59,905 bases of DNA from Thermosynechococcaceae cyanobacterium YX3bin19 (GTDB taxonomy: Bacteria > Cyanobacteriota > Cyanobacteriia > Thermosynechococcales > Thermosynechococcaceae). Positions 1,231 to 39,789 of this stretch are shown one piece after another. Positions within the stretch are counted from its first letter, which is position 1, and each line of letters opens with the position of its first letter. Both the position numbers and the translations under genes were made by a program. A model generated the notes under the pieces. It was not told where the DNA came from and made no database searches. It saw only the letters and a program-made list of their open reading frames with translations. Where the stretch lies: contig JAUJON010000008.1 in NCBI GenBank assembly GCA_030447595.1, positions 1 to 59,905 of the forward strand, in the 5' to 3' direction.

Positions 1231-3270
1231 CTAGGTTGCACCAATCATTGCTTCGACTCCCTTACTGTCAACGGGCTTAGAGAAAAGGTATCCTTGCCCA
1301 CACTCGCAGCCAAGAGATTTTAGCTGAGCCAGTTGCTCCACGGTTTCCACTCCTTCTGCTGTCACATCCATTCCCAGATTATGAGCTAAGGTGACAATCG
1401 TTCGGACAATCTCAAAGTTCTCACTATCTGACTCCATCCTGCTGACAAAGGAGCGATCAATTTTTAGGCAGTCAATGGGAAAGCGGTGAAGCCGGCTTAA
1501 GGATGAGTAGCCGGTGCCGAAGTCATCAATGTAAAGCTGAATCCCCAAAGCCCTCAACTGCAAAAGAATTGCAGTGGTTGATTCAGTCTGTTCGATAATC
1601 ACGCTTTCAGTGATCTCTAGTTTTAAGCTGTTAGTATCTAAGCCAGTTTTTTGCAAAATCTGACCAATTTGCGGCAGTAGGTCCGGTTGCAAAAACTGTT
1701 TACCTGAAAGGTTAACACTAACAGTCAAGGGCTGGGCCAGTGGGTAGCCTAGAGAAACTTGGGCACAAGTTAACTGCCAGGCTCGTAGCTGACGGCAGGC
1801 TTCCTGGAGTACCCACCAACCTATAGGAATAATTAGTCCAGTTTCTTCAGCAACCGGGATGAACTCGGTCGGCGAAACTAGCCCTCGTTCTGGGTGCTGC
1901 CAGCGGACTAGGGCCTCAAACCCCGTAATTTTGCCAGTCTTTAAAAGAACGATCGGTTGATAATGGATCCGGAACTCCTCTCGTTCAATTGCCCGTCGCA
2001 GGTCTGTCTCCAACTGTAATAGCGATACAGCCTGCACCCGCATACTGGTATTGAAAATCTCATGACGGGCTTTGCCTCGTGACTTCGCTTGGTACATAGC
2101 AATGTCCGCATCTCGAAGGAGATCCTCTGGATGTCTGTACTGACTTGAGACTAGGGGAGTGGCGGTCTCAGGTGGCGCACCCTTTTGCGTAACATCTAAT
2201 AGGTGAGAGCCGTCGGAGCAGAGGATGCCGGTGCTTAGAGTAATGCCAATGCTGGCGCTGGTAAACACTTCGTGGCCATTCAGGTTGAACGGCTGCTTCA
2301 GTTCGCCTTGAATCCGCTCCGCGACCCAGACTGCATCAGTGATATCCTCGATGTCGTCCAGTAGGATGGTAAATTCATCACCCCCCAGTCGGGCAACGGT
2401 ATCGCCAGGACGCACCGCCCGCTGTAGCCGCTTCGCGATCGCAATCAACAGTTGATCCCCCATCATATGGCCGAGGCTGTCATTAACGACCTTGAAGCGA
2501 TCTAGGTCTAAAAAGAGAACAGCAAAGCAGTAGGTCCCACGCCTGTTTGCCCGCTCAACGGCATGTTCAAGGCGGTCCATAAACAAAGCTCGGTTGGGCA
2601 AGTTTGTTAGGGCGTCATAAAAGGCGTTGTGCAACAGCTGCTCTTCCGCTCGTTTGCGATCCGTAATATCGCGGATCACGGTAAGGAGACAAGGCTCGCC
2701 CCCCAGGTCAATGATTTCTGCTGAAACCCATCCTACACGCAACCTGCCTAACTTCATGCGAAAGACAAACTCTAGATCCCGAACGGCTCCCTGTTGCTGT
2801 AACATCTGTTGCATTCTGCTACGATCCGTCAGATCAGCCCAAATGTTAAGCTCGGCCACGGTGCGACCAATCATCTCTTCACGGGTATAGCCTGTAAGAT
2901 TCAGGCAACTATTGTTGACTTCAATTAGCTTGCCCTCTGCGAGGGTAGTGATACTAATCGAGTCAGGACTAGAGCGAAAGGCTTTAGAAAATTTTTCCTC
3001 GGAAATGCGTAAAGCTTCCTCCACCTGCTTGCGCTCCATAATCTCTTTTTCAAGGGCTTGTTTAGCTGTCTCGGCCACCGTTGCCCGCAGCAGTGCCTCC
3101 TGAGCTTGCTTGTGTTCCGTGATATCACGGGTGACGGCAAGCGTGTACTGCTCACCTCCTAGGTCAATGATCTCGGCGGATACTAGCCCCCGCCGCGTTT
3201 CGCCTGACTTAACCCGGAAGTCGCACTCCAGATTGCGGACTGCTCCCTGTTGCAGCAACAGGCGCTGCAT
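1231..3270 (-). CDS. PAS domain-containing GGDEF-EAL protein (cyclic-di-GMP turnover), N-terminus frameshifted
   Basis: Signalling protein that makes and/or degrades cyclic-di-GMP. The intact frame (679 residues) has a PAC tail at about 1-60, a complete PAS/PAC at about 89-210, a GGDEF domain with an intact RLGGDEF (about 211-400) and an EAL domain with FEALVRW and DDFGTGYSSL (about 415-670). Both catalytic signatures look intact, so it could be bifunctional. The GGDEF domain carries an insertion of roughly 30 residues between SIGITLS and the conserved YRHPEDLLRDADIAMY. The real gene starts further upstream: KDGRYVEINDN and FDITKHKQVEK, pieces of another PAS/PAC repeat, lie at about 3285-3530 in shifted frames. 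No membrane segment is seen in the readable part. Confidence 0.88.
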   Translation of the reverse strand: MQRLLLQQGAVRNLECDFRVKSGETRRGLVSAEIIDLGGEQYTLAVTRDITEHKQAQEALLRATVAETAKQALEKEIMERKQVEEALRISEEKFSKAFRSSPDSISITTLAEGKLIEVNNSCLNLTGYTREEMIGRTVAELNIWADLTDRSRMQQMLQQQGAVRDLEFVFRMKLGRLRVGWVSAEIIDLGGEPCLLTVIRDITDRKRAEEQLLHNAFYDALTNLPNRALFMDRLEHAVERANRRGTYCFAVLFLDLDRFKVVNDSLGHMMGDQLLIAIAKRLQRAVRPGDTVARLGGDEFTILLDDIEDITDAVWVAERIQGELKQPFNLNGHEVFTSASIGITLSTGILCSDGSHLLDVTQKGAPPETATPLVSSQYRHPEDLLRDADIAMYQAKSRGKARHEIFNTSMRVQAVSLLQLETDLRRAIEREEFRIHYQPIVLLKTGKITGFEALVRWQHPERGLVSPTEFIPVAEETGLIIPIGWWVLQEACRQLRAWQLTCAQVSLGYPLAQPLTVSVNLSGKQFLQPDLLPQIGQILQKTGLDTNSLKLEITESVIIEQTESTTAILLQLRALGIQLYIDDFGTGYSSLSRLHRFPIDCLKIDRSFVSRMESDSENFEIVRTIVTLAHNLGMDVTAEGVETVEQLAQLKSLGCECGQGYLFSKPVDSKGVEAMIGAT

Positions 3271-3284
3271 CTGGCGCGATCCTC

Positions 3285-6200
3285 TCAGGGCGTTAACCTC
3301 TCCAACATCATCTGGCGTGCCATCAACATCTTCCCGCTTACAACTGTTAGTCGTGGCGAATTATCGTTGATTTCAACGTAGCGTCCATCTTTGAATGCTA
3401 ATCGTGATCGAATCGGGACTGAGCGTGAAGCGTTTTTAGAGAACTTTCCTCGAGGATGCGGCGGCTTCTCCACCTGCTTGTGCTTAGTGATATCAAAGGC
3501 TGTTCCAGGCGTAGTAGCCTCGTCGTGAAGCAGAGAAATGGCGATTTCGCTTTATCCTGCCCTTGCCCCTTTGGTGACAAAACTTGCTCGTAGTGAAGAC
3601 CCGCAGCTAATGACCTTGCGGCTGCTCAAACTCACAGGCGTCGACAGCCAGGTCAGGAGCGCACAACCTGGCGAAACCACGGTCAGAAGTTCCGCCTGCG
3701 ATAACCGCCTGTTGCGGCAGTTGCGATGGCGACATGAACCTTCGACCCGCACAACAAAGATTGATGGCACGCAAGCACGAAATTTTACCCTGCTCACTAT
3801 TAATGCTCATCCATTTGCTTGCGCTATGCTACCGGGGCGCAGCTGGTTTTTCCCTGAAAGTATTGGTTTTTGCCGGTTACCGTTTGCAACAGTATCGGCA
3901 AAGATGACCGTTGTTCTTCGGTCACCAGCGCTGGCTTTACCGCCGTGAATAAGACAGATCAACGAAGCCAGGCGCGCTGAAGAAAGCTGGTCAATCTATA
4001 AATCAGCGCAACAGTTTTCTTGCGCGCATAACCACTTCCAGTTACCAACTGCTTAGTCGACCAGTGCGCACCACCTGGCGAAATCAATCACCGGCAGTCA
4101 GCAGTTGAGGTATCGGCGACCGACACCACCGAAATTAAACCTCGTAGGCTTCCAGGCGTTGATGATCGCCAACAGCTTCGGCACCAGTGCATGTCGCCAG
4201 TAATTTATACGTTGCACGCAGTGGTGTTCAGCGCCCATTACTGCTTGGATATGGGGCAGGACCCAGCCACCAAACCGTTCGATAAGCCCCAACCGATATC
4301 GAGCAAGAAAGAAAGTGCTGTTTTATCCTCATCAAGACGATAAATTTGCCAGACGGGTTCCTGAATTGAATCATGAAGCTGTCATAATATAGCAACGTCG
4401 CTTTTTCCTGCAGCAAGGCAGGTAAAAACTTCGGGGCTCACGAACTTGATCGTAAATTGCTTGCGTCCTTCCTGCGCTAAACTCGGTGGTCGTCGACTTC
4501 AGTTCAGCTGGAAGAGCGACATTTCAGCGTTAGGTAATGCCGGGATCTTCTGGCCCAGCGGACGAGAAAAGTGATATAGCCTGCGGTTGTGGCGCAGAAC
4601 AGCGTATGTCTTCATTAATTGAAAAAGGTTGATGTATTCGCTAAAGCAGTCAGGTGCGGCCTGGTCGCTGAACGACAAAGGCGATCGCCGAAAAGTCAGG
4701 GTTAGGGAGCCTTGCCGCAAATCCCGCCGGTAAACGCAGTTAAAGCGATTCCGGTCACGTCGTCGGCAACTTGCGTGCGTTTTCAGCAAAGTTCTGGATA
4801 TTTTGCTGCTGGCGTCTCACAACCTCTTTCCTGGACAGTACTGGAAGCCTGCACGACCAACGCGCTACCGCGGCCTGACAGCGCAGGCGACCCGTTTTAG
4901 CCAGTTGAGCATCTTTAGCGATACCGCAGTTTGTCCCCGGTCTCGGATGAATGGCCTCAATTGCGTGTAGTTACACTAATGTTGCTCCGTCTGGATATCC
5001 GTTGGTAGCAATGGTCAAGCTGGTCAGCGCGGCGGCGAAAAACCAGCATCCTCCAGCGCGCGGTATTGGCTATCCGAAAGCAACGCGCGTCTGCTCAAAG
5101 ACCATCACGGACAAAGTGGTTGGTGCGCTGGAACCTGGCCTGGCGATTCTGCGTTAACCGGATAAGGCCTGGCCCCGGGCTGAGCAGCCAGAATACCCTG
5201 CGGCACTGCCACGCATGTGAATGATCGATCTCGTGGTCGAAGGCAATCCCATCGAAGTTCCCCGAGGAAGGTGGGGAAACCGGAAGTGGTTTGATCAACC
5301 GGATGAGACTACCTAACCCCCACCTAGCGCTTTTCTGGCACATATAGTTGGCTTGCTTTTGAGCGGCGTCACTCCCCAGCCCTTTGACAGTGAAAACTGC
5401 CGCGCTAGAAATAGAAGCAGACTGCTCCAGCCGCAACTCACATCCAACACCTGTCGCCACTGAAATCTCCCGGCCTGGAGCAATAAAACCATTTTGTTGT
5501 CGTGTTTGGCGGTGAACTGGCTATACCTGAAGGCGTATTTACCTGCACTTCATGTAAGGGTTCAGGGGAAAAGCTCAAAGATTTTCAGTTCTGGTCACAC
5601 CGCCAGCGGTTCCATCCGCTCAACGGCGCATTGGTATTTTTGTTATGGCTTCAGGCATATGTTCACCGTCAGCCGCTTTCCAGGCGTTCGCCTGCGATGG
5701 TGGTCACTTCGATGGCGTTGATGCTGAACAACCTTTCTGTTCGTCCTTGTAGTGTTTCTTCCACACACAAGATGACCCGCAAAAATTTCAGTGATTCAAC
5801 GTTTGAACGTTCCGGCAGGCCTGTTTTTTCAGTAATCAACTGCGGATCGATGTGTAGTTCGCCAGCAGAGTATGTCTTTAACCGTTGTCTGAATACGACT
5901 AAGATCACGGTTCATTAGGAATCCCCTGCAACAATGAAAACGTTTTGCGTTAGCTGAGCTATTGCCCTGACCCGACAGCACGCTCACCTTTCTGGACATA
6001 CCGGCATCACTTCTTCGCTGGAATACGGCGGTCGCCAGGGCGATAGCGGCAGCGTTCTGCTCCAGCAAGCCCGGCACCGTTAGCTGCGGCGAATATCGTT
6101 AGTGCTGGCTGTCGATAGCAGCCCTGATCAACAGAGCTGTTCAAGATTGCCAGCGGAGCCATATCAGCATAGCGAGCACTGATTGCGGCGCGCTGCATCG

Positions 6201-9200
6201 CTTACGGGCGTTGCTCCTGCTTAGCGAAATAAGTCAGCACTGCTGAACACCAGCCTTCCAGTTCAATCAGGCTCTGCAAGGCGGGCGGCTACCCGTCGCA
6301 AAGCAGGAAAGAGAAAACTTCCGCCTGGAGCCAGCGCCGACCAGCGAAGCGATTGTCCTGAGTTGGCAGGCATCCAACCAGATACGCGGTATTGCCGCTG
6401 CTGGATATCGCTGAATGCGTTCAACAGGCCGTCCTGCAGGTCTGGCCTGACCGTAGCCGACGACTATTTTAAAAGTAGTTCTGCTGCTTGCCGCTGCTCG
6501 TGCGGTGTAGACTCGCTGCAGCGGCAAATCAGTGTCGCGAGTCCTCCGGTGATTTTAGAATAGCGATTTTGCGTCGCGTAATCCAGCACGCCCGTTTTAA
6601 TCGCAATCCATTCGCCCGGACTGCAACGGTCATTTGTTGTCCGGTGCTACTACGCCGCAAAGGTACGACCCGATAAACCCCCCTAACCTGCCCCACAGGT
6701 AATTTCACATCCTGGGGAGGCACCTTTTTCCCATTGATGACAATCATCTCTTTGCCCGACCCAGAGCGCAGAGTGTTTTCGCAAAGCAGAACTGTCCTGG
6801 GGCATTCGCCAGCCATCTCGGCATTGCTGCGCTCTCCTTCAGGTTCGCGAAGAACCGCGCCGCGTTCGCTGGCCTTTATCTGGAATGACCCACTGCGTTT
6901 TCCAGGGCTTCACCTTGTATTAATGATCTCACCGCCTCACTTTCTCCAACAGAGATTACGCCTGAAGCTTTCAATAACGCCCACGGTTTCTGTTCGCCTG
7001 ATTCGCTACACCTCGCCGTTCACCTACTGAGTCACGGGTTGACTACCCGGTTGCAGGGAACTACTGGCGCTGTTGCTGGCTTGCCATTCCATAAACCGGA
7101 AACATAGCGGCACGAAAACCGACCTGCGGAAAAGCGCTGAATAAATTGGCGTCTAATGACCAGCGGATCGACATCCACTGCCATTAAATGCCAGACGCCA
7201 GCGGGGAAAGATCAAGAGAGGCAAGCGTTTGCCACCAACACGATTTAGCATATGGGCGACCAGCAACCGGGTCCGGCGGCAAAGGCTGCCCCCACCGGCT
7301 AAACTGACCAACCAGCCACCATATTCGTTTGTCAAACGAATGCGACCTTGAGATGCGGCAGGTTTCCATTCAGGTCAAGGCGCTGCCGCCTGTTGCCGCA
7401 GATAGAGCGGAAGCCAACCGCACGATATCGCTGGTTGCTGGATTGCTGGCGATCGCCGCTGAACCCGGAGCAGACGTTGCAGGCAACAGCTGGACAGCCC
7501 GGATGGCTACCCTGACGCACTGAACCAACATAATTACCCGCGACCGTCAGTAAAGCAGCACCATCTCGCCAGCCAATTTCGCCAACAGTTGAAAGATGAA
7601 CAGTGACTACCTGACAAAGCCGGAGTTCTGAAGTATGCAGCCTGATATATTCCGCAGGCAAGCATGGATAAGCAGCGCCCATATTCCGGCAGACTTATCC
7701 AGAATATTGTACAGAGTACACCGCATGATACCCTAAAAAAATAAACAACCTATCCAGTGGAGGCAGACCATAAGAACGGTCTGTAAACTGAATAAAATCA
7801 TATGCGGCATTGAATAAGCCGCAGCAGGCCTCAAAATAACTTCCGGCATTCGCTGTTAAAACCTGAGAAATGCTCATTTTTGCAGGTTTCCGCCATAAGA
7901 GCGCCCACAACCGGGAGAATGATCAACGCATCCCCGCCAGCAGCCAGTTAACTGATGGTTTTGCTTCAGAGATGCAGGGAGAGTAAAATCAGTCTGAGAA
8001 AGAAACGGAGAGAACGGGCAATGATCTGTACTTCATCCTGCAGCCAACAATAAATTAATGGTCAGCAAGAATAATATAACTTACCCATAAATACTTTCAC
8101 CGTAAAGGAAGAGAGAAGAGTCCGTGCAGAAGAATAAATCCCATAAATCTTCCGGGTCTTGCCTAATTGCCGCTGACCAGACAGACCTGGGGAACGCCAC
8201 TCGGCAGACGGTCCGCTAAGATATGTTTTCGATCGCAATAACTCAACACGCTACCCCATACCACCTTTGCCCGCTGTCGCCCACCACCATCGCTAATAGC
8301 GCTAAACCGACCTTTGCCGCAATACCTAACGATCAACAATATTTATGCCTGACAATGAGGGCCAGCGATAAATCTTCGGCAAATTTTATTCATTACGCCA
8401 GCTCAGGCCAGCGGCAGAACAACAATATCAAAAGACTCACCGGCGATATCCGGTTCCGGTGAAGAGGTTCTGGCATACCGCCGCTGGCTTCCGGAGCCAT
8501 CCCCAGAGGTCTGTGGACGGGACCAGTCCTTCCTGAAAGTCGAGTCCCAACCAGCAGCGCGCGACGATCTCAACGTCCGTTTGGGGATTCACGAAACAGC
8601 AGACTACCGCTGAACAGATATAATGAACAAAGGTCAGAGCGAAAATAATCCAGTGGCGTTTTGTTCTACTTCGATACCCAGCAACCTGATGACCAGCCGC
8701 TTCCCAGCCAGCAGGTAGATGATATTAAACCAACGCAAGACGCCAGCTGGTTTTTGACTGAGGATATGGCCTGGATCAGCCTGGAGCTGAATTGCCTTAG
8801 TGTCTGTCGAGATGACTGGCATGGCAAGCGTATAGCAGCGAACTTGCCAACGTTGCTGTCTGGTTGAGAAGAGATCGGGTGTCGATATGCCCCGCAGCAG
8901 CCAGTAATGTTGCTGGATTGCTGGGCCAGATATAACCCGGCTGTCACGACCAACTGATAGTGTTTTGTCATTATACCCAGTACCATAATTTTCACGACGG
9001 ACGATTGATCATGTTCGAGGTAATATCCCGCGGCAATAAGAGAGATCCTTTAATAAAGCCAGACAACCATCTTCGCCTTGTCGACTGTTCAGCGGTAGCC
9101 CACCATTAAAAGCCCCAGACATACCTTTAATAAACTTTAACTTTGAGTCCGGCAACTTAGCGCATAAATTCACCAACGGCATACTGACTTTCAGGTTTCG

Positions 9201-9890
9201 CCAACGATGTGCATCATCGATAATCAGCACATATCCAAAATGCATAAAGTACGCCCACAGACTTGATGAAATAGTTCTGCCAGTTCATCAACGGCAACAG
9301 GCTGCACCGAGGCAAGTCAGTTTTTGGGTGAATCAACAATTAACGGATTAATGTTTTGCGCGATCGGCCTGATAGCGAATATCAATGGTCTTTACAAACG
9401 GTCATGCCGTTCCTGAATATCGAGAACCAGCAACATACAACGCGATTAACGTCGGTAAATAAACGGTGCGCCAGCACGACCAGATGGTAATGGCGTCCAG
9501 CTCCACCACTACCCGGCAAACCTGCATAACCTTTATCAACGTTACCGAGAGCACGCGCTGGCTTCCAGACGAAAACCAGTTTGCGCATCGACAACAGCTG
9601 CCAGCAATCCCCTGCGTGATGGCAACAGTTGATCCGCAGCAATGGACTGGCGTTGATCACGATATCGCCGTCGAGCAATGCCGCGCGATCCTGATCCTCT
9701 GTTGACCAGATTGCCAGAGCGCGCGGCAGACAATGGCTGTGTCGAAATGACCCAGCGCCTTCAAACGGAGTCATGCAGGGGGTGGCTCAATTTCCTGTAC
9801 GAATCAACTGCTCTACCTTAACCTGGCATACGCTGAAAGCAGCACTAGAATCGCGGGATAGCCTAACTTCTCAATATGTGACCAACGAAT
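3285..9890. other. 6.6-kb block with no intact gene; scrambled reading frames
   Basis: No open frame here resembles a complete protein, although fragments do. On the minus strand the PAS/PAC repeats of the gene at 1231-3270 continue to about 3600, with indels every 10-40 bases. Around 5690-5900 (minus) there is an acyl-carrier-like stretch (LHIDPQLITEK, then NVESLKFLRVILCVEE). Around 9180-9240 (minus) there is a Walker-B-like YVLIIDDAHRW. Around 7330-7680 (minus) a fragment ends in AVGFRSICG. HIP1-type GCGATCGCC sites persist (about 4680 and 7450), which argues for cyanobacterial DNA. The most economical reading is uncorrected long-read sequence bridging a gap. Genuine decay is the alternative. 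I do not name any gene here. Confidence 0.7.
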
Positions 9891-9902
9891 AAGACTTAAA
9901 GA

Positions 9903-10421
9903 ATGGAGACAACTACAAAATTTTTAGTCGCTGGTGAATGGTCAGCTATCGTTACCCTAGCCTGTGGGGTACTAACCGTTCTAGCATTTCTTTTTCGCTG
10001 GGACATTCGCTTCCGGTTGGTTGGGGCAACAGGGTTTTTAGGCGTGCTAGCCGCTGGCTTCTTTGCCCTGAGTTTGGTACCGATTACCCGCACTGTCATT
10101 CCTGGAGCGATACGATTCTCCAGGGTGTTCGATTCAGGTGTTGCTCAGGTCGTCATCGCTCTGCCGCCAACCGTAACAGAGGCAGAGTTGTCCGCCACCC
10201 TGCGCCAGGCAGCTAGTGATTTGTTTTCCCCAGGGCGCCTCAGCCAGGGGGAAAAGCAGCTGACTATCCGGGCTCGAACTGTTCTCCACCCTGAACCGGG
10301 CGTTTCCCAACCCCTCTACTTGGGACAGATCAAGCGATCGCTAAGCCAGCGGCATGACTCGAATATGGAAACTACAATTTACCAGGAAAATTTGGCCCAG
10401 CTGCCGCAGTCGTCCGCTTAA
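9903..10421 (+). CDS. ycf51: Ycf51 family protein
   Basis: Conserved membrane protein of cyanobacteria and some plastids (Ycf51/DUF2518), function unknown. The 172-residue product has two hydrophobic helices near the N-terminus (about 15-32 and 38-57). The family core follows: LVPITRTVIPGAIRF, LRQAASDLFSPGRLSQGE, then TIRARTVLHPEPGVSQPLYL. Length fits the family. It is the first intact gene after the scrambled block, so its upstream promoter region may also be unreliable. It lies 45 bases before the dehydrogenase gene on the same strand. Confidence 0.9.
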   Translation: METTTKFLVAGEWSAIVTLACGVLTVLAFLFRWDIRFRLVGATGFLGVLAAGFFALSLVPITRTVIPGAIRFSRVFDSGVAQVVIALPPTVTEAELSATLRQAASDLFSPGRLSQGEKQLTIRARTVLHPEPGVSQPLYLGQIKRSLSQRHDSNMETTIYQENLAQLPQSSA

Positions 10422-18530: not shown

Positions 18531-20145
18531 CTAGGGCAAAGTTACGGACAGATCCGCGGGAGGGAAGTCTCCCTTCAGGTGCGCTATGATAGGCCCTGCC
18601 GTTGTAGTAACTCCCACAGGGCTATCCCCGTCAGAAGGGTTTGCTACAGCAGAAAGGTGAGCTACTGTTGAACTGTTAATTAAGGCAGTGGTTGTGGTCT
18701 CGGTCCAACGCGTTATCCAACTAGGCTGTAACCCCAAGACAACGATTAAGACAGCTAAAGGATCGCTGGAGTTCGCTCAACCCATTGTACAGGTGGCAAA
18801 TTCACATCCCCCAAGAACTGGTGGGTTCCCTGGCTAGGAACGGCAAGGCGTCCGAAAAACGTGTTGTTAACTAAGATCAGAAAGTAAACCGAGGTCAAGC
18901 CAGTGCCGACCATACACAGTAAGGTTTGAGTTGGAAACACCGGGAAACTACCCGGAAGACTAAAAATTCAGAAATAAAACCGACCATACCGGGGATACCG
19001 GCGCTCGCCATGACTCCCAGGACCATCAAACTACCAATCAGGGGTAGACCGCGCTCGGTGTTCAAGAGACCACGCAAAAACGTTTAAGTCACGGCTACCC
19101 GTTTTTTTGTAGACAAGGCCTACTAGCAGAAAGAGAAGTGCCGAGATCAAACCGTGGCTGATCATCTGAAAGACAGTTCCCAAAATACTTAAGGGAGTTG
19201 CAGCCGCGCAAGCTAACAGGACATAGCCCATGTGGGCAATCGAGCTATAAGCCACCATTTGTTTCATGTCTTTTTGGGCGATTCGCCAAAAGCTCCGTAA
19301 AGCACGCTCACTACTGCCCAAGAAGCCAACCAGGGAGCCCAGATCGCCCACGCTTCTGGAAACAAGCCTAAACCAAACCGCAGTAGACCGTAAGTCCCCA
19401 ACTTCAGCAACACACCTGCTAGCAAAACAGAAACGGGTGTTGAGGCCTCGACGTGGGCATCGGGTAACCAGGTATGAAAGGGGACCAAAGGAATTTTGAT
19501 GCCAAATCCGACTAAAAGTGCGCCTAGGAGCAGGAATTGCTGTCCCAAAGGCAAAGCTTGCGTCAGTAGGGGCTCATAGTTAAAGCTGGAAGAACCACTG
19601 AGGGCAGTCAGACCTAGAAATGCAGCCAGAATTAGGATGCCAGAAACAGCAGTATAGATCAGAAACTTGGTTGCTGCGTAGCCCCGACGAGGACCACCCC
19701 AAATGGCAATCAACAAATAAAGGGGTATCAGTTCTAGTTCATAGAACAGGAAAAACAATAGTAGATTTTGAGCTAAAAAGGCACCGGCAACCCCGGTATT
19801 GATGAGCAGGATCAAGATGTAATAAAGCCGAGGCCGGTGGATAGACCGATCACTACTATAAATAGCAATCCAGGTTAGCAGGCTGTTGATTGCGACTAAA
19901 GGTAAAGAGAGACCGTCCAGGCTGAGTTTATAGCTCAAGCCTAAAGGTTCAATCCAAGCCAGATCCTCCTGAAACTGTGGTCCTACAATGCCAGCATTAA
20001 ATTGACTTGCCAGGAGTACTGTCCAGCCCAGTGTAATACCCGCTAAAACTAAAGCTAAAAGTCGTGAACGGTTGGGGGCTAGAGCAGGCCACAACCCAAT
20101 CGCAACTGCACCTAAAACTGGGATCCAGATCAAAGCACTAAGCAT
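18531..20145 (-). CDS. ndhD: NADH dehydrogenase-like subunit NdhD (NdhD3/D4 type), several frameshifts
   Basis: Membrane-arm antiporter-like subunit of the CO2-uptake NDH-1 complex. From 20145 to about 19270 the frame is open (LIWIPVLGAVAIGLWPALAP, the proton-channel helices, HTWLPDAHVEASTPVSVLLA). It then continues in other frames: RIAQKDMKQMVAYSSIAHMG (about 19290-19230), ISHGLISALLFLLVGLVYKK, LNTERGLPLIGSLMVLGVMA (about 19060), LTSVYFLILVNNTFFGRL (about 18880) and AVLIVVLGLQP (about 18740). About four single-base shifts near 19270, 19075, 18945 and 18755 restore one protein of about 535 residues, the family length. Conservation is undamaged on each side of the shifts, so sequencing error is more likely than loss. 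ndhF ends 12 bases upstream. Confidence 0.85.
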
Positions 20146-26039: not shown

Positions 26040-26176
26040 GACACTGGCCTATTGATAGTTATCCCTAAGAACTTCTATTTTAAAGGGTTGATAAAGCTGA
26101 TCTAAGATGGAGCAGGTTTACTTGTCCTTAGTGAACAGGTATTCGATACTCTCTAGTGACTGTACAGGAGTAAGAC

Positions 26177-26765
26177 GTGTCCGAACTATCTAAACAAGAC
26201 GCTCAACTAGAGGAATATGCATCGGCTCAACTTAGTCCGGGTGTTGAAGTCTCAGGTGTAGAGGTACAGGTAGAGAAGCTTGATAATCGCCAGCGACGAA
26301 TTTCTGCCAGTATTAAAATTCCCCTACCCTCCTGAGAAAGTTTGGCGGGTTTTAACCAGTTACGATACCCTGGCCGACTTCATTCCTAACCTGGCAAAAT
26401 GCCAGCGCTTGCCCCACCCCAACGGCGGTGTCCGCTTAGAGCAGGTGGGGATGCAGCAGGTCCTGTTCCTGGATTTTCTGCCCGCGTCATCCTAGATATG
26501 GAAGAGAACTTTCCCCAGAAATTCGCTTTTCTATGGTCGGCGATTTTAAAACCTTCTCCGGGTCCTGCGTCCTGCAGGACTGGCCCAGGAGCGGGGAAGC
26601 GAATTAACCTACACCGTGATCGTTTGGCCTAAGCGCACCATGCCGATCGCCGCTGTGGAACGCCGGATTCGTAGCGATCTGCCACTAAATCTGATGGCAA
26701 TCCTGGAGCGATCGCACAAATTGTTGGTCACCAGGGCAGAAGCAGTCGGTCTGGTTGGCACCTAA
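26177..26765 (+). CDS. SRPBCC (START/cyclase-like) family protein, frameshifted
   Basis: Member of the SRPBCC ligand-binding superfamily found widely in cyanobacteria as a cyclase/dehydrase-like protein; ligand unknown. It starts at GTG 26177 with AGGAG seven bases upstream. The frame reads VEVSGVEVQVEKLDNRQRRISASIK, then shifts to PPEKVWRVLTSYDTLADFIPN and LPHPNGGVRLEQVGMQ, shifts again near 26490 and 26550, and ends ERRIRSDLPLNLMAILERS before the TAA at 26763. About 195 residues in total. The two-sided conservation suggests sequencing indels. Confidence 0.7.
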
Positions 26766-26957
26766 CGCTCCAAAGCACATTAGCTCTATTTTTTAGGCGA
26801 TCGCGTCTTCTCTCCTTAATGCGATTGCGTAGTAGCGGTTCATCATTGTAATCGCGCTTTTTTACTGGGTTAATCTGGAAGAAATGCTCTCCAATGATGC
26901 TCTTGCGGACTTGTACAATACCAGGTAAGTCATTAGCTACTGGTTTATAGAGCAAAG

Positions 26958-27141
26958 ATGAGTGCAAAAGATGTGCTGATCCAGGAAATCGACAGGCTCC
27001 AGAGTTCCTTTTGGAAAGTTTTGGATTTCCTACGGTTCCTGAAAGTGAAGCATCTGCAAGAAAAGCTAAGAGCGTGTTCTAAGTGAGTCCTCCCTACAAA
27101 AAGACTGGCTGAGGCCAGAGGAGGCTTGGCACGATTTGTAA
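26958..27141 (+). pseudogene. DUF2281-like antitoxin, frameshifted
   Basis: Small protein like the DUF2281 antitoxins that precede PIN or PemK toxins in cyanobacteria. From the ATG at 26958 it reads MSAKDVLIQEIDRL, then VLDFLRFLKVKHLQEKL. After a shift near 27085 it continues SESSLQKDWLRPEEAWHDL to the TAA at 27139. Length (about 60 residues) is normal for such antitoxins. It is followed at once by a toxin-like remnant. Broken, either by sequencing error or by real decay. Confidence 0.5.
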
Positions 27142-27290
27142 GCGGAGATGTAGTAGTTCTCTTCTTTACTAAATGGGCAATCGTCGCACCCGAATCACTT
27201 TTTTCACTAACCGGAAATGATAGCTCCTGCTTCTAGATCGCTTTCGCGTGCTCTCAACACTTTTGCCAAGTGCTCATTAACTTCGGAACT
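27142..27290 (+). pseudogene. Possible MazF/PemK-like toxin remnant
   Basis: Directly after the antitoxin-like gene a stretch reads GDVVVLFFTKW. This resembles the start of MazF/PemK endoribonucleases (normally GDVVVVPFPFT). A shifted tail around 27215-27235 could match the GND-type loop of the family. The rest is missing or unreadable. Only position and this short match support the call. Confidence 0.3.
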
Positions 27291-27302
27291 TTCATTGTCA
27301 GC

Positions 27303-27527
27303 CTAAATAAAATGACGCTCGGTACTTGTTCTCGGCTGACTGCCAAAGATAACCAAAGTCCAAATCCATCGTGAGAGAATGCGCCCTTCGGCACGAGCCT
27401 TTGCCAAAACTACTTCGTCATCTGATCGCTGTAGGTTCTCCTCGGTCAAATGAACTGCATCGTGGCCTGAAGATCGTAACCATGTGACTGTACGCATCAA
27501 GATACCCATATCGGCAAGAAATCTCAT
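27303..27527 (-). pseudogene. DUF5615 PIN-like toxin, frameshifted
   Basis: Putative PIN-fold nuclease toxin of a type II toxin-antitoxin pair. The frame from ATG 27527 reads MRFLADMGILMRTVTWLRS and SGHDAVHLTEENLQRSDDE, with the conserved first aspartate and the AKARAEGRILS segment. It should then go on with a TMDLDFG-type motif, which appears in a shifted frame (WIWTLVIFG in the printed frame). Length is about 75 of the usual 110 residues. Overlaps the upstream DUF433 gene by ATGA. Confidence 0.65.
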
Positions 27528-27765
27528 CCAACTTTTTCAGAGTTCTGAGGATAAACTTGTTCGCGAGTTAACCATGCAGCATATTCCAACGCTTGCTGGA
27601 TGTCTTCTGGTTGCAAATCGGGGTATTCCTCTAAAATTTCAGGCACCTGCTTGCCATGCGCTACCAGGTTTACAACTAATGAGACAGGGATTCGCATGCC
27701 GCGAATACAGGCTTACCGGCCATAATACGCGAATCAAGAAAGTAATGCGATCAAACCAAAAACAT
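27524..27765 (-). pseudogene. DUF433 antitoxin-like protein, frameshifted
   Basis: Small DNA-binding-like partner of DUF5615 toxins. Reading with frame changes gives FDRITF and IMAGKP, then RGMRIPVSLVVNLVAHG, then ILEEYPDLQPEDIQQALEYA and AWLTREQVYPQNSEKVG up to a TGA that overlaps the DUF5615 start (ATGA). About 75-80 residues, as expected for the family. Two or three indels break it. The overlap shows the two genes were translated as a coupled pair. Confidence 0.6.
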
Positions 27766-27893
27766 CTCGCCTCTTTGTTGACAATGCTTCGATGAAATTA
27801 ACCTTGCGACTAGCCTAGAGAATTCATGAACGCTATGCTCGTCCCCGACGATAGAATAGCCAAATTTTTTATTCACTTCTTCACAGGTGATCT

Positions 27894-28177
27894 TTATATA
27901 TGCCCTAGTTTGTGATTTTTCGCTATTAACTCATTATGCTTCTCTTGAGCGGCTTCAATTATTGCTCTCTCCAGTTCCTCATGGGGTTTGCTCCCTTGAG
28001 ATCTGCCTATGGAGGTTTGCCCTCTTGAGATTAGCACCGCTAAGGTTACCCAGATAAGAACTTCCTGTATGAGGTTTGCTTCGCTAAGGTCAGGCTGTAC
28101 TCAAAATTCTTTTCTCTCCACTCATTCCAAGTGTGTGCTCCTTGCTTGAGTAGATCTAGAGGTTCCTCGTTTGCCAT
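27894..28177 (-). pseudogene. Pentapeptide-repeat protein, frameshifted
   Basis: Short right-handed beta-helix type protein, role unknown. From ATG 28177 it reads MANEEPLDLLKQGAHTWNEW. After a shift come the pentapeptides DLSEANL, then LGNLSGANLKRANLHRADLK-like units, and a helical tail HEELERAIIEAAQEKHNELI before the TAA at 27894. About 95 residues. The gene length is not a multiple of three, so at least one net indel is present. Confidence 0.6.
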
Positions 28178-28494
28178 CTACAGCTAACCTCCCGTCTCTG
28201 CCAGTATACGCAACTGCTCTAAAAGAGGCTACGCCAAAACAACGCTTCGCGAACAAAACTCCATTGTTTGAGAAAAAAGGGTGAACATTCAAGCTTGGAA
28301 CTTGGATGGTCGAGCGCAGAACTTAAACGTTCATGTTCTATGCTCCATTCTTCGAGCACAGCTCTTGAAGCATCAGGCTCAGAACTGTGATCGTGGTGAA
28401 GTGAACCGGATAGGCCGCGATCGCCGGTGGGGAACAGCAGCGATCGCCCAACTTGTCTAACTCTGAAGTCAGTTCTATTCAGTTGGCGTTTGTC
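28178..28494. other. Gene-free stretch
   Basis: I see no gene, tRNA or clear repeat between the pentapeptide gene and the kinase. The segment near 28430-28450 has two GCGATCGC-type sites. No convincing terminator is seen. Confidence 0.5.
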
Positions 28495-29472
28495 CTAGAG
28501 GGATGGGTGCTGGGAGAGAAACGCTGCGACTTCTGCAGCGGTGGGTTGGGCCGCGATCGCCCCTGGTTTTGTCGTGGTTAAGGCTCCCGCGGCACTGGCA
28601 TAGGTAACAACGGCTCTCGCGCCATCCGGGTTTTCTAGCAGGCGCAGGCCCTTTTGACATTGGTGCAAGAATCCAGCCGTAAAGCTATCTCCAGCGCCTG
28701 TGGTGTCGACAACTTTCACCGGAAAAACGGGGATTCTCCCTTCATTGCCACCAAGACAGTAGGCGCTGCCCCGCTCACCGGCAGTGACCAAAACTCCCTC
28801 AGTGCTGCCAATCCGGTGATTGATTACTCCTGGATCGGTCGTGTCAAACAGCCATTGGGCCTCTTCGTCTGAAAGCTTGAGGAAGTCCACTTGCTTGATC
28901 AAGGCTTGAATCGGCTGTAGGGCGGCCTCTGGGTCGGGCCAAAAGATCGGTCGCCAGTTCACATCCAGCAAAATCTTGACGTAGTAGCGTTCGGCTAGCT
29001 CAAGTGCCCGATAAATGGCCTCCCGCGTCTCAGGGTAAGCCAGCTCCAACGTCCCCAGCACTAAGTATTCTGCTGTCTCAAATAACGACTCGGGTAATTG
29101 GGTAGCCTGCAGGTGAGCATCGGCAAATTCGCTTGTGTCATAATCCCCAAACCCGGAGAAGATGCGATCGCCTGTTTCCGTGCGAGTCACGTAAACCTGG
29201 CGTGTGGGCGCTGTGGGATGGCGCTGCACCCCTGTCACATCCACCCCTACATCTTGCAGCAGCGCCACCAGGTCTTCTCCTGGCTGGTCCTGGCCCACAC
29301 AGCCAATAAACCCGGTGGCAGTACCCAGTTTCACCAGCCCACAGGCAACGTTGGCAGGTGCTCCTCCTGGGTAAGGAGTCCACGATTCTACGGCCTCAAG
29401 TTCCCGTCCTAGCTGATCTGCCAAGCAATCAAACAGAATTTCACCTAGGCAAAGAACACGAGGGGCAGACAT
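28495..29472 (-). CDS. PfkB-family carbohydrate kinase (fructokinase-like)
   Basis: ATP-dependent sugar kinase of the ribokinase/PfkB family, most like fructokinases. The 325 residues carry LCLGEILFDCLADQ at the start, the sugar-binding GGAPANVACGLVKLG (PfkB signature 1), GCVGQDQPGEDLVALL, and the ATP/catalytic signature VVDTTGAGDSFTAGFL with the catalytic aspartate. Full length. The specificity (fructose or other) cannot be decided. It lies alone on the minus strand between accessory genes. Confidence 0.88.
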   Translation of the reverse strand: MSAPRVLCLGEILFDCLADQLGRELEAVESWTPYPGGAPANVACGLVKLGTATGFIGCVGQDQPGEDLVALLQDVGVDVTGVQRHPTAPTRQVYVTRTETGDRIFSGFGDYDTSEFADAHLQATQLPESLFETAEYLVLGTLELAYPETREAIYRALELAERYYVKILLDVNWRPIFWPDPEAALQPIQALIKQVDFLKLSDEEAQWLFDTTDPGVINHRIGSTEGVLVTAGERGSAYCLGGNEGRIPVFPVKVVDTTGAGDSFTAGFLHQCQKGLRLLENPDGARAVVTYASAAGALTTTKPGAIAAQPTAAEVAAFLSQHPSL

Positions 29473-31664: not shown

Positions 31665-32268
31665 AGTTGGGCGTTGCTGAATAACAGGATGAATTAAGTA
31701 GGGAGGGACATCCCAAAATTTTAGATAGTGCAGTAACAAGCGAATTGAATGCCTCAGCATTTCCTCGGACTTGGAATAGCAGAGTGTTTTGCGATGTAGT
31801 CTTGCTAGATAATGCCGCAACCGTGTATTCTCCCCTTCTACTCGTGTCATGTAAGTCTTGCTCACAATCTGGTCTCCGGGTGGAATGAATCCTGGATACA
31901 CACTCCAACCGTCAGTGACATAGAAGTAACATTGCCATGCTCCGACAATTGCCCACAACGGTTTCAAAGGTCTTGGCACTATGGTCGCCCATACCCAGCC
32001 CAAAAGGCCTGCACTAAAATGGTCTACTGCTGTCCACAGCCAGATTTTGTTTTTTAGCACCGACAAAAGTTTCCAATTCATCCAGTTCACCCCACCTGTG
32101 GGATTACCTGCGGAACGTAGGTATCGGGCAGATGTTGTCCGGTTTGTTTCACCCAATAAATCACAGTTGTGTGGTGAACACCTTTGACTCGTTGGATGCC
32201 ACGAAAACCCATGCCATTGACATACATTCGTAAGCATTCCTGTTTGATAGCGGCACTGTAGCCTTGAG

Positions 32269-33721
32269 CATTACAGTTGTAGATAGTCTAAATTATATTT
32301 ATAAGTAAATACAGTTTAGCAATGCTAGATACATCCAACGTGTTCCTAACCGGGAAGCGTTAGAAGCGCTGTCTGAATGGATGCCACACTCAAAACATTT
32401 CAGCAAAAACTGGGAAAACATTTTGCTCGTTCTGAAGCAAGTCTTGCAGCCTTCAACTATATCCAGGCACTACTAAGCCCGGTTGAACGCGTAAAAACGG
32501 TTGGCAAATGGCTGAACAAGTGGGATACAGTACTCCCTATCGGTTGCAGCATTTATTAGGACGAGCGCAGTGGAATGCAGATGCCGTGTGTGCAGAAATT
32601 AGGCAATATGCAGTGGAGCATTTGAAGAGCGAGACAGATATTTTGGCAATTGATGAAACAGGCTTTCTCAAGCAGGAGAGCAATCAGTAGGCGTGCAGGT
32701 ACAGTACTACGGTACGACTGGACATTTGGAGAATTGCCAGGTGGGTGTGTTTATGTCCTATATCAGTGATCAAGGGCAGACATTAATTGATCGCCGCCTA
32801 TATCTTCCCCGTTCATGGGCGCAAGACCAGAGCAAACGTAAAAAGACGGCGATTCCAGAAGCGGTTGAATTTGCGACTAAACCTCAACTAGCACAACAGA
32901 TGTTGGAATCAGCAATCAATGAGGGAATTCGTCCAGTTTGGTTCCGTCGCTGACGGGTGTATCAACGACGGTTCGTTCTGGTGGTGGTTGGAAAAGACTG
33001 CAAAACTTCCTATCTACTCACAGTCAACAAAAAGCAGCCTGTAGTTATTGGTTGGCGGCGTTACCGAGCCGAAGATTTAGTGCCACAATCAGATTCTCAG
33101 CAGTGGCAGCGCCTGGGTTGTGGAGCTGGCAGCAAAGGAGAACGATACTATGATTGGGCACGCGTTGCCGTTAACTGTGACAAATCAGATGGTTGCCAAC
33201 GCTGGCTGCTGTTTCGTCGCTGTTTGGAACACCCTGATGACCCTCGCTTCATCAACTACTACCAAGTTTTTGCTAAGAACAATACCACCCTAGAAACGAT
33301 GGCTCAAATAGCTGGGCAAAGGTGGCGAATCGAGGAGTGCTTTAAATTCGCTAAAGACCAGCTAGGTTTAGGAGAATACGAAGTTCGTTCCTGGCACGGT
33401 TGGTATCGACATCACCCTCGTCCTGGCTGCTCAAACAGTTCTCTCAATCCTGCGGCATCAAGCTGAACCTGTTGTCAACAGGACTACCCCTTTGGCGACC
33501 GCATCCACTGGCAGCCTGGTCTCGTTCAAAGCGGTGCGAGGTTTGTTGTCCAATTGAGTGTTTGGGAGATGAAACGGTGGGTATCTAGGCTCTTGTTTCC
33601 CACGTTCTGGTGTCTTGAACACGTTTTGCACTGGTCTTATTGGCGCAGAGCTCATCAATACTGCTCGATACTACCATTACCAAAAGCGAATTCACTCCTC
33701 TGGCTATCTACAACTGTAATA
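32269..33721 (+). mobile_element. IS701-family insertion sequence, 1453 bp
   Basis: Complete element with 17-base perfect terminal inverted repeats ATTACAGTTGTAGATAG (32270-32286, reverse complement ending at 33720). It is flanked by a 6-base direct repeat CTTGAG at 32263-32268 and 33722-33727, the likely target-site duplication. Removing it and one CTTGAG rejoins the IS1 transposase frame. One transposase gene fills the element. Confidence 0.82.
32377..33719 (+). pseudogene. IS701-family transposase, several frameshifts
   Basis: DDE (RNase H-like) transposase. Pieces in successive frames are MAEQVGYSTPYRLQHLLGRA, ILAIDETGFLKQ (first aspartate), TGHLENCQVGVFMSYISDQG, AVEFATKPQLAQQMLE, an ADGVY second aspartate region, GQRWRIEECFKFAKDQLGLG (glutamate), and the C-terminal EMKRWVSRLLFP. 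The total, about 440 codons, is a full-length transposase. Indels near 32690, 32950, 33040, 33410 and 33550. The same kind of indels occur in housekeeping genes here, so the copy may really be intact. Confidence 0.75.
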
Positions 33722-38957: not shown

Positions 38958-39789
38958 TTAACCAAACCGACCTTCAATATAGTCTTGAGTACGGGGATGA
39001 CTCGGTGCTGTAGATTTCAGCTGTCGGGCCGAACTCCACCATCTGGCCAATACGGCTTTCGTCTGTGCTGAAAAAAGCTGTGTAGTTAGACACCCGAGAT
39101 GCTTGCTGCATATTGTGGGTCACGATCGCAATGTTAGCTGCCCGTGCAGGCTGTGGATCAAGTCTTCAATTTTTTCATCGTGGCAATGGGATCAGGGCTG
39201 AGCAGGCTCATCCATCAGCAAAATCTTTGGCTTAACTGCAGCGCCCGAGCAATACAGAGTCGCTGCTGCTGCCCCCAGACAGTCCTAACGCTAATTTGTT
39301 GAGGTTATCTTTGACTTCATCCCAAAGGGCGGCACTGGAGAGTGCAGATTCGACAATTTCATCCAACTCAGCTCGGGAGCGACGTCCAGAAACCCTAACC
39401 CCATAGGCTACATTATCGTAAATGCTCATTGGAAAAGGGTTCGGCTTTTGGAACACCATGCCAATTTGCCGGCGGAGTCGATTTAGGTTAATGCCCCGGC
39501 TGTAGATGTTTTGACCAAAAAATTCGACAATTCCTTCGACACGGACCTTGCATTCTAGCTCACCAATCCGATTCAAGGCTTTGATAAATGTTGATTTACC
39601 GCACCCAGAGGGTCCAATAATTGCCGTGACCCGACCTTGGTAAATATCCATTGATACCGCTTCTAGGGCCTTTTGGCTCCCGTAATAGAAGCTGAGATCT
39701 TTGGTCTGGAGTGCTGGAAGAAGGTCTTTTGGGGCTGATTCTGTCACAGTTGGGTTGTTAAAGTTCGCAGCTGGATTATTGAACATCAT
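38958..39789 (-). CDS. pstB: Phosphate ABC transporter ATP-binding protein PstB, several frameshifts
   Basis: ATPase that drives high-affinity phosphate import on the cytoplasmic face of PstCA. The intact part reads [20 protein letters not shown], Walker [18 protein letters not shown], and the Q-loop [20 protein letters not shown]. From 39250 the frame breaks at the signature (LSGG, then [11 protein letters not shown] in a shifted frame). LLMDEP (Walker B), ALLA-like [27 protein letters not shown] (H-loop) and the end [16 protein letters not shown] are found in changing frames. About four indels. Surrounding pst genes are clean, so base errors are likely. Confidence 0.85.

Follow-up and report, generated by a model that had tools for sequence, protein, structure and literature searches.

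Genes and reading frames of the locus

The window analyzed here is the whole 59,905-nucleotide stretch of contig JAUJON010000008.1 from Thermosynechococcaceae cyanobacterium YX3bin19, part of an assembly of 446 contigs (3.87 Mb) listed as 74% complete. Near its left end, a gene for a PAS-GGDEF-EAL protein is clean over 1231-3270 on the minus strand (Pfam EAL, GGDEF and PAS_9), and its N-terminal part enters a 6.5-kb block, 3271-9769, with almost no open frame. Beyond the block lies ycf51 (DUF2518; 9903-10421, plus strand, PF10726), which is clean, as an earlier note on this DNA had described it. Stop-free frames of at least 150 codons cover 1% of the bases in 3285-9890 and 72% of those in the rest of the window, and the interval 3361-9899 is the longest in the window without one. 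When codon usage was modelled from 14,817 codons of the same genome, 99% of 3271-9769 came out as non-coding, compared to 22% of the remaining window. The scrambled reading frames reported in the earlier note are thus confirmed by both measures. The HIP1 motif (GCGATCGC) persists within the block, as had also been noticed, though its two sites (~0.3 per kb) are sparser than the 44 in the other 53.3 kb (~0.8 per kb).

Accuracy changes abruptly at both borders, as judged by the frame break on the left and by identity to an accurate contig (C29, described below) on the right. The PAS gene, previously considered clean to about 3285, loses its frame between ~3271 and ~3284, a modest refinement. On the right, the limit had been placed at about 9890; the sharp border is instead at 9769/9770, within sufU, where identity to C29 jumps from ~0.63 to 1.00. 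On its clean side, 9770-9870 still holds a few residual differences from C29, and at these positions the SufU protein of a relative agrees with C29 and not with the window.

Recognizable protein fragments had been claimed for the block, and own-genome protein searches do match it, with the hits correctly ordered and interrupted by stops. Genes of the left half were placed by frameshift-tolerant protein alignment against the intact cluster of G001, whose ycf51 match ranks highest among the relatives, while the protease and SufU were placed with the proteins of C29. Four scrambled genes follow one another on the minus strand, each scored against 60 shuffles and 14 other window stretches. These are an acyl-ACP desaturase-like gene of the PF03405 family (4108-4820; score 440, maxima 124 and 112), a CMAS-type SAM methyltransferase gene (4904-5658; 388, maxima 137 and 132), an acyl-carrier protein (ACP) gene (~5693-5903; 169, maxima 75 and 66), and a fatty acyl-AMP ligase (FAAL) gene with a Pfam AMP-binding match (6425-8026; 592, maxima 219 and 218). 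Own-genome protein searches recover the desaturase at E 2.6e-12 with two stops, the methyltransferase at E 9.9e-11 with two stops, and the C-terminal part of FAAL at E 2.3e-7; for the latter two, other family members elsewhere score equal or better.

To the right, a scrambled carboxyl-terminal processing (Ctp) protease gene of family S41 occupies 8322-9434 on the minus strand, and its score of 235 has the smallest margin of the six genes (maximum 158 in shuffles and 160 in other window DNA). The gene sufU (9495-9889, plus strand; 210, maxima 97 and 107) is scrambled to 9769 and clean from 9770. Next to the left border, 3271-3629 (minus strand) appears to continue the PAS gene with a further PAS repeat, a weak placement in which the aligned part, 3315-3629, scores 120 against a shuffle mean of 91 and maximum of 119; a PAS-like frame is found at 3285-3473. 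Two unrelated proteins aligned to the block score only 126-149, and frameshift-tolerant alignment placed no gene in 3630-4107 or 5904-6424. The acyl-carrier-like protein suspected earlier is therefore present as the ACP gene, which stands well above its shuffles. The NTPase-like protein suspected alongside it was not found; the genes placed instead encode an AMP-forming acyl ligase, a methyltransferase, a desaturase, a Ctp protease, and SufU.

FAAL, ACP, methyltransferase, and desaturase lie in the block in the same order as in the intact cluster of G001. The predicted true order of the locus is PAS-GGDEF-EAL (-), acyl-ACP desaturase (-), CMAS-type methyltransferase (-), ACP (-), FAAL (-), S41/Ctp protease (-), sufU (+), ycf51 (+), and Fe-ADH (+).

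An accurate counterpart of the right half

The earlier note had proposed a comparison with other sequence from the same organism, and for the right half this could be made inside the assembly. An own-genome search with the block identified C29, a contig of 3,269 bp that is colinear with window 7195-9982. Over 7195-9769, C29 gives the sequence in intact form, and the block, in this right half only, differs from it by dense indels. It encodes the first 287 codons of FAAL without interruption (C29:1-861), a complete S41/Ctp protease of 420 aa (C29:1314-2576; PF03572, TIGR00225), and a complete SufU of 155 aa (C29:2712-3179; TIGR01994). End-to-end alignment of C29 404-2907 with window 7565-9676 gives a score of 830, compared to a mean of -7 (sd 34, maximum 87) for 40 Markov-1 shuffles and a mean of 31 (maximum 97) for 42 other window stretches taken from 21 starts on both strands.

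The right end of C29 crosses the sufU/ycf51 junction into the same neighbor as the block. In 13 of 19 relatives' loci, G001 included, ycf51 adjoins sufU; among the six loci without sufU beside it, one (L027) ends early at a contig end. The intact genes of C29, its run across the junction, and the conserved adjacency together indicate that C29 is the same locus, read accurately. The last ~90 bases of C29 (~3180-3269) have ~70% identity to the clean window, mostly through substitutions, and ycf51 is broken there; this corruption is of a different kind from that of the block.

That the assembly contains both sequences could also mean a duplication, with C29 as an intact real copy and the block as a decayed one. 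This is the least probable reading, a very long shot, as C29 passes into the same neighbor as the block and the genome yields a single ycf51 match at E <= 0.001. In a real duplicate, moreover, most differences should be substitutions, and indels would not recur every few bases.

For the left half, 3271-7195, the assembly holds no clean counterpart, only matches of chance length (~35 bases or fewer), so it is protein similarity that carries the reading there. Foreign DNA was also considered. No nucleotide match to 3200-10000 was found in the plasmid collection or in the phage collection, nor to the block in E. coli genomes, searched with 5100-9000. Contamination by vector, phage, or E. coli is thus not supported at the sensitivity used.

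Error profile and origin of the block

Aligned with C29 1-3056, the block has 2008 matches, 294 substitutions, 754 deleted bases, and 273 inserted bases, a density of indel bases close to one in three over the right half, where 2,575 bases of the block stand for 3,056 of C29. At that rate of loss in the left half as well, the true distance between the two borders would be ~7.7 kb. End-to-end alignment flatters such sequence, with matched bases reaching 58% in shuffles and 65% in the real pair, and error rates were therefore calibrated by simulation. The simulations that best match the observed score, matches, and gaps have ~14-18% substitution, 8-12% insertion, and 24-29% deletion. Errors in the right half fall very unequally on complementary bases: T is wrong at 359 of 757 positions (47%) and A at 187 of 764 (24%; chi-square p 2e-20), with a smaller difference between C and G (p 0.024). 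Such strand asymmetry is as expected of single-strand reads. Together with the dense indels and the abrupt border inside a gene, it marks the differences as reading errors and not as mutations. The left half does not share this AT skew, and the halves may thus derive from separate reads.

Protein fragments interrupted by stops and frameshifts do resemble old pseudogenes, and the block might accordingly be viewed as a genuine decayed chromosomal region. This is very improbable. A pseudogene would have no intact copy at the same locus, and C29 carries intact sufU and Ctp protease genes beside the same neighbor. Decay would also have to stop abruptly inside sufU, break every gene placed in the block, introduce about one indel base per 3 bases over the right half, and strike A and T at very different rates.

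The block is most likely a familiar type of assembly artefact, and not a decayed region. Almost certainly, 3271-9769 is uncorrected low-accuracy sequence from single-molecule long reads that joins two accurate contigs. The raw long-read gap filler proposed in the earlier note is thus well supported by the intact state of C29, the dense indels, the strand-asymmetric error, and the right border within a gene. A hybrid assembler or gap closer would have bridged the two accurate contigs with a noisy long read, a read so noisy that C29 would not have been recognized as the counterpart of the right half and would have been left as a separate, unplaced contig.

Hybrid assemblies are known to contain errors of this class, in which raw long reads fill a gap. 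As in such cases, an abrupt, indel-dense coding block lies between accurate contigs, and a contig that reads part of the locus accurately has been left unplaced. The block differs from typical filler in its error load, which exceeds the 10-15% taken as usual, so that nucleotide search ties it to C29 only in patches. Among the titles of literature on hybrid MinION assembly of cyanobacteria or on raw-read gap filling, none was tied to this genome.

Filler blocks of this kind make housekeeping genes (here sufU and the Ctp protease), as well as a rare lipid cluster, look absent or pseudogenised. Pseudogene counts, claims of gene loss, and completeness estimates such as the 74% listed for this assembly could be misled by them. 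The block deserves masking or re-polishing, and this contig should not be taken as evidence that sufU, the Ctp protease, or the lipid cassette is absent.

Sequencing platform

Early nanopore reads are expected to shorten homopolymers strongly, while raw PacBio sequence is insertion-rich. The block shows no reduction in homopolymer content, with 56 bases per kb in runs of at least 4, compared to a minimum of 46.7 and a mean of 62.5 in clean windows. The runs of C29 are often shorter at their place in the block, with the overall run content of the block normal. In the GraphMap paper (PMC4835549), deletion and mismatch rates of ONT reads exceed their insertion rates, PacBio mismatch rates are low by contrast, and the raw accuracy of early MinION 1D reads is below 65-75%. 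The MARC phase 1 data for 2D reads likewise have deletions (5%) above insertions (4%).

With 754 deletions to 273 insertions, the excess of deletion fits an early nanopore 1D read better than PacBio, and 1D is regarded, with moderate confidence, as the likeliest platform. The normal homopolymer content and the inferred error load, which is high even for 1D reads, count against it. PacBio CLR or a poor consensus, which would leave the artefact itself unchanged, is a doubtful yet possible source: it would account for homopolymers that are not notably shortened, and it agrees poorly with the predominance of deletions over insertions and with the frequent substitutions.

A probable lipid cassette beneath the block

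The scrambled genes at 4108-8026 constitute a FAAL-ACP-CMAS methyltransferase-acyl-ACP desaturase cassette, which is intact in G001 (C46:48000-66000, at positions 6176-10317). The cassette looks rare. When 145 genomes, including that of YX3bin19, were searched with the G001 desaturase at E <= 1e-20, the sole match was G001 itself; the scrambled copy in the window falls below this cut.

Among plasmid records, the best desaturase matches are megaplasmids of Streptomyces clavuligerus, at 40% identity. In the one record examined (NZ_CP065235.1), AMP-binding, SAM methyltransferase, and acyl-ACP desaturase genes are adjacent in the G001 order, with ligases 34%, methyltransferases 45%, and desaturases 41% identical between the two. 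Unlike the G001 cluster, that of the megaplasmid lacks an ACP gene between the ligase and methyltransferase genes, and upstream of it lies a gene for an FAD-dependent oxidoreductase.

The families of the four proteins, namely AMP-binding (FAAL), PF00550 (ACP), PF02353 (CMAS), and PF03405 (desaturase), suggest a pathway. From family membership we infer that a fatty acid would be activated, loaded on the ACP, and desaturated, and that its double bond would then be modified with a carbon derived from SAM. The balance tips slightly toward this cyanobacterium having, beneath the block, an intact cassette that is rare in cyanobacteria, that shares the ligase-methyltransferase-desaturase order of Streptomyces clavuligerus, and that is predicted to load a fatty acid on a carrier protein of its own, where the chain would be desaturated and would receive a methyl, methylene, or cyclopropane group. 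If true, this would be a carrier-bound modification of a kind normally made on phospholipids or mycolates. Literature searches combining FAAL and acyl-ACP desaturase with cyclopropane or methyltransferase returned nothing under the terms used.

Similar blocks and other features of the assembly

A survey for similar blocks covered the 36 readable contigs among 63, the other 27 being wholly or mostly N. Of the readable contigs, 24 reach 3.7 kb or more; the window was examined together with no more than the first 20 kb of every other one, and 11 of the 24 have a stretch of at least 2 kb without an ORF of 150 codons. Outside the window block, four ORF-poor stretches exceed 5 kb. Those in C132 and C251 are each labelled 44% non-coding, and that in C310 is labelled 85% non-coding, with 2.5 kb of it N. 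Only the fourth, C340:3051-10033 (7 kb, 97% non-coding by the codon model), resembles the block. It may be a second filler block, since a transposase copy within it (7637-8318) is rich in indels: aligned over 689 columns with its C138 counterpart, it shows 25 gap openings, compared to 1 and 5 in two other alignments of repeats. This stretch has a lower G+C content, and most of its length is without a clean counterpart. A blastn comparison of the small contigs with the larger sequences at hand turned up no other pair resembling that of C29 and the window.

Within the window, 26049-28497 is another ORF-poor stretch, with short frames over 2.4 kb. Two frames outside the block seem to end early: 19264-20145 (293 aa), presumably NdhD-like, and 39232-39789 (185 aa), which we take to be PstB-like. 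Given the lengths expected of such proteins, they suggest scattered frameshifts outside the block. Finally, 32267-33721 is a 1.45-kb repeat, 97% identical to C132:47772-49226, that contains a presumed transposase-like frame and is probably an insertion sequence.
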